In this document: piece by piece, positions 50,381 through 64,000 of the stretch
How the letters are laid out: the number at the start of each line of letters is the position of its first letter
How positions within the stretch are numbered: position 1 is the first letter of the stretch
Translations under genes and position numbers: made by a program
Source: Tautonia plasticadhaerens
Lineage (GTDB): Bacteria; Planctomycetota; Planctomycetia; Isosphaerales; Isosphaeraceae
DNA length: 64,000 nucleotides
Assembly (NCBI RefSeq): GCF_007752535.1
Contig: NZ_CP036426.1
Span: 2,604,001-2,668,000 of the forward strand
Direction of reading: 5' to 3'
Notes under the pieces: generated by a model
Seen by the model: only the letters and a program-made list of their open reading frames with translations
Told to the model about the DNA's origin: nothing
Database searches by the model: none

Positions 50381-53300
50381 CTATCGGGCCGGATCCGGAC
50401 GGATCCCGACGGGCAGCGCGTCCGGGCCGATGGGCCATCCCTCGGCCACGTCGAGGGCCATGCCGCGCATCGGCTCGCGGAGCGAGGGGTCGGATCGCAA
50501 CGCCTCCAGGACGGCCGCTGTGTCGCGGTGCCGGTCGAAGAGGGGCCAGACCAGGGAGACGGCCTCGCGGCGGTAGAGCGTCGCAAGCGAGGGACGATCC
50601 AGGTCCCAGATCCTGGCGGTCTGGTCGATGCTCCCCGAGACGAGGCGACGGCCGTCGGGGCTGAATGACAGGGAGATTACGCCGGAGGTGTGGCCCCGGA
50701 GGGTGAAGACTTCCTCAAAGGTCTCCGTGTCCCAGAGCTTGATGGTCCGGTCGTCGCTTCCCGTGGCGAGGCGGCGGCCATCGGGGCTGATCGCCACGGC
50801 GCGGACGACGTCCGTGTGCCCGAGGAGGTCGGCGATCTTGCGACCCGACTCGGGATCCCAGACGGTCACCTCCGCCCGGCCCTCCAGCACCCGGCCGCCG
50901 GTCGAGACGAGGAGGCGGCCCTCGGAGTGGAAGGCCACGCCGTGTACGGGAAACCGATGCTCGAGGGGCGCGTAGGCCAGGCGGCCGGTCCGGGTGTCCC
51001 AGACCTTGACGGTCGAATCGGAATCGGTGGCCGCCAGGTATCGGCCCTCGGCGTCCGGGCTGAACGCCAGGCCGGGGAAGAATGTGAAATCGGCTCGCTG
51101 GCCCTCGAATGCAAGCGGCGAGAAGAGCAAGCGGCCGGTCTGCGCGTCCCAGATCTTCACCGTCCGATCGGCATAGCCGGCCGAGGCGAGGCGCCGGCCA
51201 TCGGGGCTGAAGGCCAGGGCCGGCGTCCCCCCGTCATGCGCCTCGAACTCCAGGAGTCGTCGGCCGGTGGCGATCTCCCAGATCGTCACCATCCCACTCC
51301 GTTCTCCCGTGGCGAGGCGCCGGCCGTCGGGGCTGAAGGCGAGGGGCCAGGCCTCGGTCGGCGCCGGGAAGGACCGGATCGGCTCGCCCGTGGCGCGATC
51401 CCAGAGGACGGTCCACGATTCCTTGTAGGGGAGAAAGGACGCGGTCGATGCGGCGAGCTGGCCCTCGGGGCTGATCGCAATGGAGACCCAGCCATCGTGG
51501 CGATCGAAGGTGAGGTCGAGGCTCGGCGTCGCGAACCAGAGCTTGACCAACCGGTCCAACCCGCCCGATGCGACCCGAGACCCATCAGGGCTGAACGCCA
51601 CGCCGAGCACGAAGTGCGCATGCCCGCGGAAGGTGGCGAGCCCGCGGCCGGAATCCACTTCCCAGAGCTTGACCACCTTGTCCTCGGCCCCGGAGGCCAG
51701 GCGACGGCCGTCGGGGCTGAAGGCCAGGGCCCGGACGAAGCCCTCGTGACCGTGGAAGGACCGGACCGGCGCCCCGGTGGATCGATCCCAGAGCTGGACC
51801 GTCTTGTCGAGCCCGCCCGAGGCGAGGCGGCGGCCGTCGGGGCTGAACGCCACGGCGTAGACCAGCTTGCCGCCATGGACTGGCAGGGAATGGATCCGCC
51901 TGGGCGTCTCGACCTCTTCGACGTCCCAGACCTCCACGAGGCCCTTGCTGGTCAGGGCGACCTGGCGGCCGTCGGGGCTGAACGCCACGCTCCAGACGCC
52001 GCACTCGCGCCCGGGCAGGACCCCGCCCACCGCCTCGCCGTTCGAGGCATCCAGGAGCCGGGCGTAACCGGGAGTCTCGAAGTTGCCGAGAATCCCGAAG
52101 CCCAGGACGATCCGCTTGCCGTCGGGGCTGAAGGCCAGCCCGAGGGCCGAGCGCTCGCCGGGCTCGGTCCTGGGGGGGAATCGCTCCCGCCCGGTGGCCA
52201 GCTCCCAGACGGCCAGATGGGGCCCGAAGCTCGCGGCGATCCAGCGGCCGTCGGGGCTGAACGCCACGCTCCGGACGCCTCCCGTCAGCCCATCGCGCTC
52301 GAAGACCACCCGCCCGGTCGTGGCGTCCCGGATCACCAGGGCTCCCGCGACTCCCGGCTCCTTGTCGTAGAAGTGGCCGGATCCGCACGCGACCTGACGG
52401 CCGTCGGGGCTGAACGCCACGGCATTGACCGCCGGGCCGGGCTCCCGGAACGTCTTCAGGTCGAGATGGCACTGGCGCCAGACATACGCCCACTCCCAGC
52501 CCCGGAGGTCGACCGGGCACCCGTCGAGCAGTTGCAGCGCCCGGGCGACGTCGTTCCCGAGGCACTCGCTCAGGGCGAGGTTGACGCGGGCGATGTAGTT
52601 CTGCCTGCGCAGCGATTCTTTCTGCCACTCGGCGCGCAGCCACTGGCTGGACACGCCCACGAACCCGGCGACGATGGCCATCGTCAGCAGGGCCAGGAGC
52701 GCAGCGATCGCCGGCCGCCGCCGCCCCCACTTGACCAGCCGCTCCCAGGACGACACCGGACGTGCCACGATCGGCTCGCCGGCCAGGAACCGGCGCAGAT
52801 CCGCTTCCAGCGAGGCGGCCGAGTGATACCGCCTCTCCGGCTCCTTGCGCAGGCAGGTCAGCGCGATCGTCTCGAGGTCGCGGGGCAGTCCCGGCACCAG
52901 GCGGGACGGCGGCACCGGCTCGGCGTTCTTGACCTGCTCCAGCGTCTCCAGGAGCGTCGCGCCCCGGAATGGGGGCCGGCCGGTGAGCAACTCATACAGG
53001 ATGGCCCCGAGGGCGTAGATGTCGGCCGCCGGGCCGACCTCCCGGGAATGGCCGCCGGCCTGCTCGGGGGCCATGTAGCTGGGGGAGCCGAGGATCGAGT
53101 CGGTGGCGGTCAGGCCCGAGTCGGAGCCGATCGCCTTGGCCACGCCGAAGTCGGCGACCTTGGGGGACTCGTGGTCGTCGAGCAGGACGTTGGCCGGCTT
53201 CAGGTCGCGGTGGACGACGCCCGCCTCGTGCGCCGCCTGGACGGCGTCGGCGAGCGTGGCGACCAGCCCGGCGGCGTGTCGGGGGGCCAGGGGGGTGCCG

Positions 53301-57394: not shown

Positions 57395-58999
57395 ATGGGC
57401 ATGGCGAGCAGGTCGGGGGCGGCGGACGAGCTTCGGCGGCAGGCCGCCTCCCTGTTCGGGGGAGGGGCGGTCGCGGGGCTGGGGGACGGCGAGCTGATCG
57501 ACCGGTTCCTCCGCCGGGGGGCCGCCGGGGATCTCGAGGCGGCCGAGGCCGCCTTCGGCGCCCTGGTGTCCCGGCACGGGGGGATGGTGCTCGGCGTCTG
57601 CCGGCGGGCCCTGCGAAACCCGCACGACGCCGAGGACGCCTTCCAGGCCGTCTTCCTCATCTTGGCGAGGAAGGCGGGCTCGGTCCGGGTCGACGACTCG
57701 ATCGGCCGTTGGCTCTACGGCGTCAGCCGGAAGGTCGCGGCACGGGCGAGGACGAGGGCGAAACGCCTCCACGCCCGGGAGGTTTCCTCGACGGCGATCG
57801 ACGCGACGGAGCCCCCCGGCCGGGACTCGGCCGAGAAGGCCGCCGATCGGGACGACCTCCGGACCGTGATCCTCGACGAGCTGGCCCGCTTGCCGGGCCG
57901 GTACCGGGAGGCGATCGAGGCGTGCGACCTGGACGGTTGCTCGCACGAGGAGGCCGCGCTCCGGCTCGGCTGGCCGGTCGGCACCGTCCGGAGCCGGCTC
58001 TCCCGGGGACGCGACCGGCTCCGGGGCCGTCTCGAACGCCGGGGGGTCGGGCACCCGGGCCTCGGCGTCCCGGTCGTCCGGGGCCTCTCCGGGTCCATGC
58101 CCCCCGCGCTGGCTTCCGCCACGACTCAAGCCGCCGTCCGATTCGCCATGCGACGTGCCCTCGACGGGTCGTTCCCGGTCGCGGTCGCGACGCTCACCCA
58201 GGAGGCTCTGCGAGCCATGATCATCAGCAAGCTGACCGTTGCAGTTCCGGCCGCCCTGCTCCTCGCCGGAGGAGCCGTTGCCACCGCGCAGTTCGGGGGC
58301 CTCGGGACGGGACAGGGTGGCCCGGCCTCCGGGAATTCGAGCCCGCCGGCCGTCGGAGCACAGGCAGGTGGGGGCCCGGGCTCCCTGACGAATCCGCCCG
58401 GCTCACGCCCCGGCGCCGTGGCGTATGGAGGAGGCGGATTCGGGGGAGGGTTCAGCCAGGGAATCCAGACTGGGGGCTTCGGTGGCCTGCCGGGCCTCGG
58501 CGGGTCCGGGTACACCGGGGCGGGCCGTCGGATCACGCTCCAGGCGGGGACGATGATCCTGCTGGAGTCGGAGGCCAAGGACCAGATCACGGTCCACGAC
58601 GCCGGGAGCGGCAAGACCGCGAATTACCAGGTCCCCGAGGGGCTGACCGCCGTCCCGATCGCCACCAACGAGGTTGTCGTCCTCCAGATGGAGGGCGAAG
58701 GCATCTCCCGACTGGCGGCCTACGGCCCCGGGGCGGACTCCTGGTCCACGATCGACCTGCGCCCTGCGGTCGACGGGACGCTCCAGACGATCGTCTCCGG
58801 GGGCATGGCCGCCATCTGGGACGGCCCCCGCGTCTATGCCTTTAGTGCAAGGACAAGTCGATGGGACGTGGTCGAGCGGCCCGAGGGGGCCGAGGGGCCG
58901 CCGATCCTGAACAACGAGTATGTCCTCTGCGAGGACGACGATCGCGTCTACGTCTTCGGCGCCCGCACCGGCCGATGGGCCGCCGTCGATCCCGAGTGA
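57395..58999 (+). CDS. ECF sigma factor fused to a membrane helix and outer domain
   Basis: 534 residues. Region 2 lies at about 53-110 (FGALVSRHGGMVLGVCRRAL, PHDAEDAFQAVFLILARKAG) and region 4 at 158-212 (LPGRYREAIEACDLDGCSHE, then AALRLGWPVGTVRSRLSRGR). A linker is followed by a membrane helix (ISKLTVAVPAALLLAGGAVA, about 277-296), a Gly-rich stretch to 370, and a beta domain whose repeats (VYAFSARTSRWDVVE, VYVFGARTGRWAAVD) look Kelch-like. The sigma domain is thus tied to the membrane and the C-terminus is outside, so release by proteolysis or signalling by the outer domain is implied. This is a known planctomycete ECF architecture; the regulon is unknown. Confidence 0.92.
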   Translation: MGMASRSGAADELRRQAASLFGGGAVAGLGDGELIDRFLRRGAAGDLEAAEAAFGALVSRHGGMVLGVCRRALRNPHDAEDAFQAVFLILARKAGSVRVDDSIGRWLYGVSRKVAARARTRAKRLHAREVSSTAIDATEPPGRDSAEKAADRDDLRTVILDELARLPGRYREAIEACDLDGCSHEEAALRLGWPVGTVRSRLSRGRDRLRGRLERRGVGHPGLGVPVVRGLSGSMPPALASATTQAAVRFAMRRALDGSFPVAVATLTQEALRAMIISKLTVAVPAALLLAGGAVATAQFGGLGTGQGGPASGNSSPPAVGAQAGGGPGSLTNPPGSRPGAVAYGGGGFGGGFSQGIQTGGFGGLPGLGGSGYTGAGRRITLQAGTMILLESEAKDQITVHDAGSGKTANYQVPEGLTAVPIATNEVVVLQMEGEGISRLAAYGPGADSWSTIDLRPAVDGTLQTIVSGGMAAIWDGPRVYAFSARTSRWDVVERPEGAEGPPILNNEYVLCEDDDRVYVFGARTGRWAAVDPE

Positions 59000-60001: not shown

Positions 60002-60421
60002 TCAGTCGAACGAGGGGGGCTTGCGGAGCTTCTTGGTCTGGGATCGCTGCTTCTTGGACTCGGTCGTGCGCTGCTTCGAGCCGAGCGTGGGCCTGGTGGG
60101 GATCCGGGGCTTGGGGGGGGTGGCGGCCTCGAGGACGAGGTCCCGGAGCTTGTCCAGGCAGTCGTCGATGTTCCGGAGGCGGTCCCTCGTCCGCTGGGAG
60201 GAGATGATCAGCTCCCCCTCGGAATTCAGCCGGGGGCCGACGGCCCGGAGCAGTCGGCGGCGGACGGGCTCGGGGAGGCTCGGGCTGTCGGCGGGCGTCC
60301 AGCGCATCACGGCCTTGGTGGCGACCTTGTTGACGTTCTGGCCGCCGGGGCCGCCGGATCGGGCGTAGTCGAAGTGGAGCTCGTCCATCGGGATCGAGAT
60401 CCGGTCGTTGATGCGAAGCAT
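60002..60421 (-). CDS. arfB: Alternative ribosome-rescue factor ArfB (peptidyl-tRNA hydrolase)
   Basis: 139 residues, full length. The GGQ loop SGGPGGQNVNKVATKA near residue 22 hydrolyses peptidyl-tRNA on stalled ribosomes. The C-terminal tail is strongly basic (SKQRTTESKKQRSQTKKLRK) as needed to enter the empty mRNA channel. Its presence gives the cell a rescue path beside tmRNA. A 13-bp hairpin lies upstream, ending the previous leftward gene. Confidence 0.95.
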   Translation of the reverse strand: MLRINDRISIPMDELHFDYARSGGPGGQNVNKVATKAVMRWTPADSPSLPEPVRRRLLRAVGPRLNSEGELIISSQRTRDRLRNIDDCLDKLRDLVLEAATPPKPRIPTRPTLGSKQRTTESKKQRSQTKKLRKPPSFD

Positions 60422-60556: not shown

Positions 60557-62326
60557 TCAGCGGGCCGAGGGCCCTCCGTGGGTGCCGTAGTCGACCGACA
60601 TCGTCGGCGGGGCGGTCACGGCCCGGGTGCTGGCGGCGAGGGTCGGCACCGCGGTGCGGAGGGTCGAGCCCCGCAGGGTCGAGGCGGCCCGATTGGTCCG
60701 GGCCCCGGCGAGGGTGACCACCGGCCCGCTGCCGAGCGTCCCGCCGCCGAGCGTCCCACCTCCCAACGTCCCGCCGCCGGGGGTCGGCGAAGAGACCGGG
60801 GGTGCCGGGGTCGGGGCCGGGGCGGGTGTGAGGACCGGGACCTGCCCCAGGAACGACCGGGCGATGGCGCCCCGGGTGGGCTCGGCGCCGAGGGTGCCCC
60901 GGAGGGCCGGGCCGAACTCCTGGCGGATCCGCTGGGCGGCCCCCGGCTGGAGCCCCCGGTAGAACTGCCCCGGCGGGGGCGCCGGGTTCGTCACCGGCTG
61001 GGGGGGCGTGGTCACCCCGGCCATGAACAGGGTCACGTCCCGGTTGAAGACCTGCACCGGGCTCACGAACTCGGTGCCGTCGTTGAGCTGGCCGGTGAGG
61101 TTGACGAAGGTCACCCCGGGCGGCAGCGGGTCGATGTCGGTGCTGAGGAAGATGTAGGTGGCGTCGAGGTACGGGTCCTTGTTCGAGAACTGGGTGAAGG
61201 TGATCAGCGGCTCGGCGCCGGAGAGGCTCACCGTGTCGGTGTTGACCTCGGTCACGGCGAACCGGGGGGAGCCGAACAGGTTCACCCGGACGAGCTGCGG
61301 GTGCGCCGTGTTGATCGTCCGGTGGTTGTGCGGCTGGACCAGGACCTTCGGCTCCAGCGGCGGGCACGGCGGGGGCGGCGGCGGGGGGGGAGGAGGCGGG
61401 GGCGGCGGGGGAGGAGGCGGCGGCGGGGTGGGCAGCGTGGAGTCGCCGAAGTTGAAGCCGAGGGGCGGGATCTGGGCCTCGCTGATGCCGTCGTCCTGGG
61501 CCGAGCCGGCGAAGGCGGAGACTTGCAACCGGGTCTCGGGGGTCAGCTCCGTGCCGGTCCGTTGCTGGTAGAGCTGGGCGAAGTTGCGGACCTCGAACTC
61601 GAAGTTCGGGGCGCTGGGGGTGTTGCTCAGGAAGGAGACGCCGATGTTCTCCGGCAGGATGTCGCCGAAGCCGTTGCGGAGCGGGTCGGCCGAGTACTCG
61701 GCGACGGTATAGATCTTCCGCAGGGGCTCCAGGGTGTCGGGGTCGATCCCGTTGGTGATGCCGGCCACGACGTTGTCGGCCAGGGTCTCGGGGTCGCCGA
61801 GCACGTCGTTGTCCAGCAGGTCGATGCTGGCGTACATCGTCTCCGAGCCGCCCAGCAGCAGCGGGTCCTCGAAGAAGACGGGCAGCGCCTGGACCTCGGG
61901 GGCGACGGTGCCGCCATCGAGGTTGTTGTCGGCGTCGCCGGCGATCACCGGCTGGCCGGTCTTGCCGTTGATCGGCTGCTCCAGGCCGATCCGCAGGGAG
62001 TCCTGCTCCTGGTCGTAGGAGACCCGGATGGCGTCGAGCTGGAAGCCGGAGACGCCGATGAATTCGCGCAAGCCCGGGGGCTCGGGCGGGATGAATGGGA
62101 CGAGGTAATCGGGGTCATCCGGTTCGGGAGTGAGGACCACGACACCTGGACTTGTGGTAGCGGGGAAATCGGTTACAACGTTTCCCGTGAAGTCGACGCT
62201 CATGAGCTGTCGATGATCCAGATGCTCGACTGCGGCGCGCCGGCGTCGCCGCGCCATGGGCGCGGTCGGTCCCCGGCGCGGTCGCCAGGAAAGCACGGCC
62301 TGGAGGATCTTCCTGATCGCGGTCAT
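60557..62326 (-). CDS. Exported protein with LEPR-like N-terminus, polyproline linker and a domain shared with the divergent PEP-CTERM gene
   Basis: 589 residues. I chose ATG 62326 because GAGGACGCC precedes it; GTG 62347 is possible. A basic N-terminus followed by AAVEHLDHRQLMS resembles the planctomycete LEPR-x-LL export signal. Residues 45-290 form a domain (TGNVVTDFP, LDAIRVSYDQEQDSLRIGL, VIAGDADNNLDGG, LQVSAFAGSAQDDG) that aligns in order with the divergent gene at 62617. A run of about 20 prolines (near 301-320) separates it from a second beta domain of 130 residues (NHRTINTAHPQLVRVNLFGS) and a Pro/Gly/Thr-rich tail with GGGTLGGGTLGGGTLG. Secreted and probably wall-associated; the function is unknown. 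Confidence 0.85.
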   Translation of the reverse strand: MTAIRKILQAVLSWRPRRGPTAPMARRRRRAAVEHLDHRQLMSVDFTGNVVTDFPATTSPGVVVLTPEPDDPDYLVPFIPPEPPGLREFIGVSGFQLDAIRVSYDQEQDSLRIGLEQPINGKTGQPVIAGDADNNLDGGTVAPEVQALPVFFEDPLLLGGSETMYASIDLLDNDVLGDPETLADNVVAGITNGIDPDTLEPLRKIYTVAEYSADPLRNGFGDILPENIGVSFLSNTPSAPNFEFEVRNFAQLYQQRTGTELTPETRLQVSAFAGSAQDDGISEAQIPPLGFNFGDSTLPTPPPPPPPPPPPPPPPPPPPPCPPLEPKVLVQPHNHRTINTAHPQLVRVNLFGSPRFAVTEVNTDTVSLSGAEPLITFTQFSNKDPYLDATYIFLSTDIDPLPPGVTFVNLTGQLNDGTEFVSPVQVFNRDVTLFMAGVTTPPQPVTNPAPPPGQFYRGLQPGAAQRIRQEFGPALRGTLGAEPTRGAIARSFLGQVPVLTPAPAPTPAPPVSSPTPGGGTLGGGTLGGGTLGSGPVVTLAGARTNRAASTLRGSTLRTAVPTLAASTRAVTAPPTMSVDYGTHGGPSAR

Positions 62327-62616
62327 GGCGTCCTCGTCCTTTCTCACGGGAGGCCCGCGCCGGAAGCGGCCCCGGGCATGACGCGAACTGGGCCGCCGGG
62401 ACGGCGGCCGGGCCGGCGCGCGACCCGGGCGGCCGACGACCCCGAAGGGGGGCGTCGGCGGACCTGGTCGCCGGGGGGGGGATCGAAGGCGAGCCGGCCA
62501 GCGGCCCGGTCCGTCCCAAGGCCTCCCCTCGCATGATCGTTCGGCGAGCCGGGCTGCCCCTCCGGGGCGACCCGAGCCTCGCCGATCAGCCGCCGAAGCG
62601 TGGAAGGAGACACGGC

Positions 62617-63474
62617 ATGCGGCAGAGGAACTGCCCCATCTTGTTCACGGTCGGATTCGGCCTGTTCCTGGCTTCGGCCGGGACGGCCTCGGCCGGCGCC
62701 ATCGGGACGATGACCGGGGATGTCGAGGTCGACTTCCCGATCGCCCCGAAGAACGGCGTCGTGGCCATCGTCGACAACCCCGGTGCGGACGGCGGCGCCA
62801 GCCCCTGGGACGTGGCCCAGCACCAGAAGCTCCCCGGCACCACCGGCTGGAACATCAAGGACCTCCGCCTGGCCTACGATGATTCCGCCGACCGGATGTA
62901 CCTGGGGCTGAATTTCTTCGGCATCGCCGGGGACGCCGACGGCGACGGCGACCCCGGCTCCCTGTCGGTCGGCATGGGTAAGGACATGCCGAGCCTCGGG
63001 GGCATGGAGTCGATCGTCGTGGCGCTGGACCTGAACCTGGACGGCGTCCCGGACGTGGTCTCCGGCGTGCCGACCCAGAAGTCCGGTGGCGCCCCGGGCA
63101 CCTCCGCCTTCACGGTGGCGAAGTACCAGCACGCCGAGGCCGGGCTCGGCTTCAGCTTCGGCGACACGCTGGCCGATCACGTCGGATCCCTGGCGTTCGA
63201 CCCCTCGGCCGAGCACCCGGACTTCCAGTTCACGATCGACAACTTCATGAAGCTCGAGGGGCTGGTCCCCGAGGACGGCTTCATCATCAGCGCCTTCGCC
63301 GGCGCCCCGGACGACGTGATCGCCGGCGAGGACTTCATCGCCAGCACCCGGATTGCCTTCCCGGGCAAGGGCAACCAGAACGTGCCGGAGCCGGCCACCC
63401 TGCTGGGCTGGGCCCTGATCGCGGGCGGGGCGATCGCCTACCGGGGGCGCAACCGGGTCTCCCGGGGGCGCTGA
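62617..63474 (+). CDS. PEP-CTERM-sorted exported protein
   Basis: 285 residues from ATG 62617 behind AAGGAG. Signal peptide to about residue 26 (FLASAGTASAG). The body aligns in order with residues 45-290 of the divergent neighbour: TGDVEVDFP, IKDLRLAYDDSADRMYLGL, GIAGDADGDGDPGSL, IDNFMKLEGLVPEDG, IISAFAGAPDDV. The aspartates suggest calcium binding. The C-terminus is a PEP-CTERM signal: VPEPATLLGWALIAGGAIAY followed by Arg residues, to be cut by an exosortase. A classical terminator follows. Role in the cell surface or matrix is likely; no enzyme motif was seen. Confidence 0.92.
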   Translation: MRQRNCPILFTVGFGLFLASAGTASAGAIGTMTGDVEVDFPIAPKNGVVAIVDNPGADGGASPWDVAQHQKLPGTTGWNIKDLRLAYDDSADRMYLGLNFFGIAGDADGDGDPGSLSVGMGKDMPSLGGMESIVVALDLNLDGVPDVVSGVPTQKSGGAPGTSAFTVAKYQHAEAGLGFSFGDTLADHVGSLAFDPSAEHPDFQFTIDNFMKLEGLVPEDGFIISAFAGAPDDVIAGEDFIASTRIAFPGKGNQNVPEPATLLGWALIAGGAIAYRGRNRVSRGR

Positions 63475-63768: not shown

Positions 63769-64000
63769 ATGTCAGACCACCGATCCCGATCGAATCCCCG
63801 GCCCCGGGCGACGGCCCCGTCGCTCCTCCCGCTGCTGCTGCTGCTGGGGCCGTTGCCGGTCGCCCCGGCGGCCGGGCCGGCCCCGGTCGACGACCCCCCG
63901 ACGGCCTCGACGGCCCCCCGGCACCCCGACCTGACCGGGCCGATCGTCTGCCTCTCGGTCCGGGGCTTCCGGGAATTCGTCCCCCGGGAGGAGCCGAGTC
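63769..64000 (+). CDS. Exported protein, N-terminal fragment (3' end beyond window)
   Basis: ATG 63769 opens a frame that runs off the right edge after 77 codons. A Ser/Arg/Pro N-terminus precedes a strong signal peptide SLLPLLLLLGPLPVAPAAG (about residues 18-36). The mature part begins Pro/Ala-rich (VDDPPTASTAPRHPD) and then becomes domain-like (GPIVCLSVRGFREFVPRE). No family can be assigned from so little. It is a secreted or membrane protein, separated from the PEP-CTERM gene by a true terminator. Confidence 0.75.
   Translation, partial: MSDHRSRSNPRPRATAPSLLPLLLLLGPLPVAPAAGPAPVDDPPTASTAPRHPDLTGPIVCLSVRGFREFVPREEPS

Follow-up and report, generated by a model that had tools for sequence, protein, structure and literature searches.

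A divergent gene pair with a common domain

The subject of this report is a pair of divergently transcribed genes in Tautonia plasticadhaerens, located at positions 60557 to 63474 of a 64,000-nucleotide stretch of contig NZ_CP036426.1 (positions 2,604,001 to 2,668,000), referred to here as the window. The source genome comprises 9,395,224 bases in 6 contigs, and strain ElP has been described as carrying a chromosome and five plasmids (PMC7716859). The leftward gene encodes P1 and the rightward gene P2; the two are transcribed away from each other and 290 bp separates their starts. Both open reading frames (ORFs) were found where the preliminary description of this DNA had placed them, as were, in order, the three pairs of similar motifs that it quoted. 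Both starts were moved inward relative to that description because the ribosome-binding sites preceding them, AGAAAGGA before P1 and GGAAGGAG before P2, recur in relatives with small changes. Judged from the sequence, P1 most likely starts at the ATG at 62326 rather than the GTG at 62347, and P2 at the ATG at 62617 rather than at 62533. The parts of the pair are listed in Table 1.

The two proteins carry homologous copies of a single domain. P1 and P2 align by BLASTP with 48 bits and an E value of 1e-10 (60 identical residues of 237). For the domain parts, a local score of 180 was obtained, against best shuffled scores of 72 with residue shuffling and 66 with block shuffling, and none of the 2000 shuffles of either kind reached the observed value. 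Comparison by hhalign of a profile of 30 P2-type sequences (from 42 P2-type ORFs) with one of 28 P1-type sequences (from 37 P1-type ORFs) gave a probability of 99.9 and an E value of 1.9e-36 over 218 columns. Chance similarity is ruled out by the shuffles and the profile comparison, and the domains are of common ancestry, as had been proposed from the sequence. Within the genome itself no copy of the domain beyond P1 and P2 was detected at E ≤ 1; one further match (E 0.6) was confined to the last 30 residues of P2.

The polyproline linker and second domain that had been noticed in P1 are borne out as a run of 20 prolines followed by a beta domain. Runs of 18–20 prolines occur in three of the four genomes of the genus of T. 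plasticadhaerens, the fourth copy being cut before the run, while two genomes outside the genus have runs of 9–11 and the remaining P1 copies have 2–5. In one genome of the family (G043; L109:2-1258, on the same contig as L158) the P1 frame loses register within the polyproline stretch, either through an assembly error or through slippage in a G/C run. The tail of P1 aligns poorly among relatives, and model confidence is low in the part that was modelled (residues 432–450 only).

Table 1. Features of the P1/P2 locus, in window coordinates
Feature	Position	Strand	Basis
P1 gene, 589 amino acids	60557..62326	-	ORF and start; adjoins P2 in 37 of 39 matching family genomes
P1 residues 1-44, amphipathic/basic N-terminus ending RRRRRAAVEHLDHRQLMSV	62195..62326	-	variant of RRLxxExLExRxLLA
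P1 residues 46-300, shared domain, predicted DOMON/CBM9-like	61427..62191	-	homology to P2, model, fold
P1 residues 301-320, linker of 20 prolines	61367..61426	-	
P1 residues 321-433, second beta domain	61028..61366	-	model strands; profile relatives
P1 residues 434-589, variable low-complexity tail	60560..61027	-	aligns poorly among relatives
Region between divergent starts, 290 bp, one ribosome-binding site per gene	62327..62616	.	
P2 gene, 285 amino acids	62617..63474	+	ORF and start
P2 residues 1-27, hydrophobic, signal-peptide-like N-terminus	62617..62697	+	judged by hydropathy
P2 residues 29-253, shared domain, predicted DOMON/CBM9-like, acidic loop IAGDADGDGDPG	62701..63375	+	
P2 residues 257-285, PEP-CTERM-like tail PEPATLLGWALIAGGAIAYRGRNRVSRGR	63385..63471	+	pattern; below curated cut-offs

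Recurrence across the Isosphaeraceae

Each of the two domains was used to search 45 Isosphaeraceae genomes; contigs shared with records of Tautonia sociabilis, Singulisphaera acidiphila and Aquisphaera insulae, together with the taxonomy, place the group in this family. A domain match was present in 39 of the 45, and in 24 of the 26 genomes of good quality. An intact pair in one locus was recovered from 37 of the 39 matching genomes, and all 37 pairs are head-to-head. In the two exceptions (G023 and G025) the contig ends at the locus, G023 retaining the first 53 residues of P1. No uncut locus with just one of the two genes at this place was seen in the 39 genomes, and neither gene is present in the six family genomes that gave no match; four of these six are less than 90% complete. 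The gap between the genes measures 239–296 bp in 35 of the 37 pairs, the remaining two measuring 170 and 763 bp. The regions compared numbered 39 plus one extra region from genome G012 (L111), whose three P2-type ORFs were excluded from the count of PEP-CTERM ends and, lacking an adjacent P1, give no gap to measure; in two regions, L093 and L094, the contig breaks off. The pair is an old arrangement present in most of the sampled family genomes, a spread that the preliminary description had understated.

Beyond the family, a 49-row profile of the domain was run against 203 genomes sampled from other parts of the class, and one of them matched weakly (E 2e-4). The P2 domain alone matched nine of 392 genomes in a draw from the phylum, and two of the nine (G000 and G022) belong to the family. 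No paper on the pair or the domain was found in the open-access literature, most subscription papers lying outside this search.

Additional copies of the domain occur in a few family genomes. G012 (L086, L111, C2:366418-367155 and C2:4821775-4822476) has seven P2-domain matches: extra P2-type copies, a P2-type copy split across two frames at C2:1362213-1362930 and an additional P1-type copy inside an open frame of 1010 amino acids. A single extra copy distant from the pair is present in each of G035 (C36:82449-83207), G030 (C8:312694-313401) and G007 (C139:33354-33974).

Origin by duplication and wider distribution

A quick tree of 94 domains, from which duplicates, one cut sequence (L143) and second copies of pair loci were excluded, was supported by the Shimodaira–Hasegawa-like approximate likelihood ratio test (SH-aLRT) only. 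In this tree the 28 P1-type and the 30 P2-type domains each occupy one side of a branch (SH-aLRT 100 and 96, respectively), and the 36 other domains are separated from both with a value of 85. The tree fits a single duplication no later than the root of the Isosphaeraceae and vertical descent thereafter, with the value of 85 leaving room for a different order of events. Because the P1 and P2 sequences of the family fall into one clade each, a recent local duplication is ruled out.

Species genomes were scanned with a pattern drawn from a 13-row alignment; 43 loci were returned, 15 of them being family loci with the pair. Because a single acidic loop underlay the scan, the list of loci is incomplete. 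The 28 loci elsewhere come from bacteria (other Planctomycetota, Lentisphaerota, Chloroflexota, Myxococcota, other proteobacterial groups, Actinomycetota, a Dojkabacteria bin and unclassified records) and from two archaeal bins, Methanothrix and Methanosarcinaceae, though nearly all are metagenome bins and single assignments may reflect contamination. At these loci the domain is found in tandem copies and with several kinds of C-terminal tail, as judged by eye. None of the 28 holds a divergent pair, and double copies there share one strand. One of them, in a Lentisphaeria bin (L137:106-2825), has two domain copies in overlapping frames of the same strand, the first with a PEP-like tail, and may be an independent instance of paired copies that differ in their ends. 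No match was found among 72,556 plasmid records, a set that may exclude those of this genome, and spread by plasmids was not adopted as an explanation. The shared domain is named by no family of Pfam or NCBIfam.

Terminal signals and exosortases

The two proteins bear different sorting signals, as the preliminary description had noted, and the distinction holds across relatives. A motif of the form PEP[TAS], a hydrophobic stretch and a basic end close the P2-type proteins in 37 of 39 cases, the window copy included; in the two exceptions a contig end truncates the ORF. With the family profile PF07589 at E ≤ 0.1, 14 of 30 P2-type relatives match, the best at 7e-7. P2 of the window is absent from the 28 PEP-CTERM matches in its genome at E ≤ 0.001. 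The PEP-CTERM end reported for P2 is therefore upheld as a pattern, here and in relatives, and is termed ‘PEP-CTERM-like’ from its sequence because the cut-offs of the curated hidden Markov models are not reached.

The N-termini are likewise distinct. Peak hydropathy is at least 1.30 in P2-type proteins (median 1.84; 37 of 42 ORFs, with L111, L094 and L087 excluded) and at most 0.85 in P1-type proteins (median 0.35). The N-termini of the latter are not hydrophobic, and all 37 P1-type ORFs carry an LDHR-type motif, which in P1 matches, by eye, six of the ten fixed positions of RRLxxExLExRxLLA. That consensus is the presumed novel export signal of planctomycete surface proteins (PMC8567305). In Tuwongella, 20 of 52 genes with a related motif were detected by proteomics, eight of the 20 only in the sodium dodecyl sulfate fraction S3 (PMC8567305). 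The corresponding Pfam family, PF07595, has nine matches in the genome of T. plasticadhaerens and none passes the cut-off; NCBIfam LEPR-XLL is not among the families reported for the 28 P1-type proteins at E ≤ 0.1.

The search for exosortases, which had also been suggested, returned two strong genes in this genome, on contigs C1 and C5 (E 1.2e-58 and 3.3e-58), and a third, weak match. In both strong genes Cys, Arg and His lie, by eye, in the expected kind of context. An exosortase above cut-off is present in all 45 family genomes, including the six without the pair, so that its presence alone fails to predict P2. Contig C5 of this genome (G000; 35912-61546) is plasmid-sized and carries, besides the strong exosortase match at 52218-52985, three PEP-CTERM matches; it is perhaps a mobile exosortase set.

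Predicted fold and conserved residues of the shared domain

The P2 domain was modelled with a predicted local distance difference test (pLDDT) score of 91.9 and a predicted template modelling (pTM) score of 0.91. The model of P1 residues 1–450 reached 79.7 and 0.62, with most of the shared domain above 85 in pLDDT. Structural ranks were obtained by re-aligning Foldseek matches with VIA-align 2. The P2 model ranked 1ug9 first (Z 8.7, 3.9 Å over 155 residues), followed by 1d7b and two more entries of the cellobiose dehydrogenase cytochrome domain, and then by nitrite oxidoreductase 7b04_C (Z 7.3), one antibody row and dopamine beta-hydroxylase (DBH) 4zel (Z 6.7). The P1 model ranked 2ivf_C first (Z 8.2, 4.2 Å over 173 residues), followed by the putative carbohydrate-binding protein 4jpq (7.5), with antibodies and MAdCAM-1 from Z 6.4 downward. 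The matched parts of glucodextranase 1ug9, of 7b04_C and of 4jpq are ones we take to belong to the DOMON/CBM9 group. Two separately built models that both place DOMON/CBM9-type structures first form a coherent prediction, each Z value being modest (below the first ranks, the structures of this group scored 6.7–7.5), and different folds for the two regions were not what the models returned. The DOMON domain of DBH has a fold in common with 1D7B and 2IVF and is less close to a CBM9; DOMON-type domains bind heme or sugar, and that of DBH has an Asp-rich metal site (PMC4846438).

Over 49 diverse domains the best-kept polar columns are acidic (Asp 11, 64, 78, 80 and 95, and Glu 176), and no His, Met, Lys, Cys or Trp column reaches 60%. 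Within the two types, Met164 and Lys204 are near-invariant in P1-type domains, and Lys127 and His172 are kept in P2-type domains (97% and 87%). Metal-supported binding of a glycan or of matrix is the role we tentatively favour for the shared domain.

Three other assignments were considered and set aside. An FG-GAP (integrin-type) repeat was matched by P2 with 17.5–17.7 bits against a cut-off of 22.1, only over residues 132–158, and the predicted fold is a sandwich; at E ≤ 0.1 this family matches 4 of 30 P2-type and 5 of 28 P1-type proteins. A match of the P1 profile to a phage hyaluronidase (E 0.004–0.005) spans 73 columns and is not among the listed structural matches. The Kustd1514 S-layer model was matched by one P1-type protein at 0.0032 and was not adopted.

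Second domain of P1 and adjacent genes

The second domain of P1 occurs once in the genome at E ≤ 0.1. Its profile matched 11 other genomes of a 246-genome draw from the phylum, with best E values per genome from 1.2e-8 to 5.9e-4, and two of these 11 carry a run like VPVAILGTSDFDV. A profile search of solved structures gave no relative of note. In 3 of the 28 aligned P1-type proteins (L103, L104 and L105), all from genus g19, a DUF11 domain lies between the shared and the second domain.

Directly downstream of P1, at window positions 60002-60421, is a gene for an RF-1 domain protein with a GGQ motif, presumably an ArfB-like protein of peptide release. A linked cluster in which RF-1-type genes adjoin the pair comprises 10 loci, the clusters being chained such that unrelated genes may be merged. 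Positions 57395-58999 encode a sigma factor of the extracytoplasmic function type (Sigma70_r2 and r4) with a long C-terminal extension that opens with a hydrophobic stretch. On the other side, starting 295 bp past P2, a 194-residue protein with a hydrophobic N-terminus runs from 63769 to 64000 and continues in L072; its part within the window has no Pfam match.

Interpretation of the pair

Taken together, the observations suggest a head-to-head duplication, no later than the origin of the Isosphaeraceae, of an extracytoplasmic binding domain of DOMON/CBM9-like type that has been retained since. Exosortase would sort one copy, and the planctomycete signal would direct the other. P2 would cross the inner membrane by Sec, be held by its C-terminal helix and then be cut by exosortase, reaching the outer surface or the polysaccharide matrix. 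P1 would be exported by its N-terminal signal and display the same domain on a linker beside the second beta domain. The acidic loops may bind metal and the domain may hold a glycan of the surface or matrix. Binding domains of one kind would in this way be delivered outside the cytoplasm by two routes, P2 freed or matrix-bound and P1 on its linker. Joint expression of both genes from the intergenic region is suggested because the distance between the divergent starts is steady. This reading as a whole is put forward tentatively, at a confidence a little short of probable. The preliminary description had the domain and the signals right; the delivery of the domain to two places in the cell envelope and the interaction between P1 and P2 that it proposed are possibilities.

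Several results weigh against this reading. The window P2 scores below the curated PEP-CTERM cut-offs, with 12.6 of the required 20.7 bits in Pfam and 13 of 16 in NCBIfam TIGR02595. P1 scores 16.1 bits alone and 21.0 in the genome search against PF07595, the cut-off being 25.5, and 27 of 28 P1-type proteins fail to reach E 0.1 with this family, one reaching it. On the structural side, neither model had a Foldseek match at E ≤ 0.001, the top Foldseek rows for P1 were the immunoglobulin-type chains of MAdCAM-1 and nectin-2, profile searches gave no solved relative of the shared domain, and Z values such as those above may, by the tool's own warning, mean merely a common arrangement. Lastly, when one intergenic region from each of 19 genera was compared, the top 8- and 9-mers covered no more regions than in shuffled sequence, and the best 10-mer covered 10 of the 19, against at most 9 in ten shuffles. 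With coverage near the shuffled level, no shared regulatory motif is claimed.

The fate of the pair across the family also bears on whether P1 and P2 are components of one structure in the same surface or matrix layer, the signals being alternative routes and the domains pairing together. Such an arrangement would agree with the intactness of 37 of 39 pairs, with the finding that neither gene stands alone in an uncut locus and with the absence of both from the six genomes without a match, four of which are less than 90% complete. Co-retention would, however, fit shared regulation or a shared ligand equally, and we consider this arrangement rather unlikely. Alternatively, the domain could be a module for structural spacing or adhesion that has no specific ligand, its duplication having given two building blocks of wall or matrix. 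The domain does occur in long open frames of other phyla (up to 2254 amino acids within the fetched DNA) and in tandem in L129, L134, L137, L141, L146 and L148, and P1 carries a further beta domain and a tail of low complexity. Against this stand the strong conservation of acidic residues across the 49 diverse domains and the heme or sugar binding of the nearest folds that PMC4846438 names. A ligand-free module is in our view unlikely, somewhat more so than a single joint structure.

A heme (redox) DOMON domain, as in the cellobiose dehydrogenase cytochrome and ethylbenzene dehydrogenase, is brought to mind by the chains of both proteins among the best structural matches and by the residues retained in each type, Met164/Lys204 in P1 and Lys127/His172 in P2. 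These are a different pair by number, and across the 49 domains every His, Met, Lys and Cys column stays below 60%; heme binding appears highly improbable. A bolder form of the two-route reading would make the pair a family-defining display at two addresses. An ancestral DOMON-like lectin would have split once at the root of the Isosphaeraceae, and its copies, sent out via exosortase and via the N-terminal signal, would hold the same glycan from two sides, tying surface to matrix. This proposal is speculative and, as a whole, rather doubtful.

The same passenger domain stands under each signal in most of the sampled family genomes, which offers a natural side-by-side test of both tags. The open-access literature search found no measurement of the destination of a PEP-CTERM protein in the Isosphaeraceae. 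T. plasticadhaerens produces abundant extracellular matrix and adheres to plastic (PMC7716859), and the pair is a candidate matrix component in this species. The shared domain, present in several phyla and in archaeal bins and unnamed in Pfam, merits a Pfam family of its own.

Comparison with known systems

The second domain of P1 is alike by profile to an extracellular beta domain with the run SKGVIPVALLGSADFDV / GNGVLPVAILGTSDFDV (L192 and L200; unnamed in the libraries used), from which it differs in opening with CPPxSPPILINPHxHRHINTAH; it belongs to no Pfam family. The shared domain resembles the DOMON/CBM9-like domains of DBH, the cellobiose dehydrogenase cytochrome and ethylbenzene dehydrogenase in its predicted beta sandwich and its first structural ranks, whereas it has no sequence match to the Pfam families, NCBIfam families or solved structures of that group, its Z values are modest, and no heme ligands are kept over the whole family of domains. 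With the DBH domain in particular it has Asp-rich conserved sites in common (PMC4846438).

P2 shares with proteins of the PEP-CTERM/exosortase system (Haft et al. 2006, PMC1569441) a hydrophobic N-terminus, a PEP motif, a hydrophobic stretch and a basic end, in a genome that has exosortases, but scores below the curated cut-offs and has a divergent paralogue without the tail. Compared with the Planc_extracel proteins of PF07595 (PMC8567305), P1 keeps six of ten consensus positions and scores 16.1 to 21.0 bits against the required 25.5, yet has the same order of a basic run followed by ExLDxRxLM/L with no hydrophobic signal peptide.

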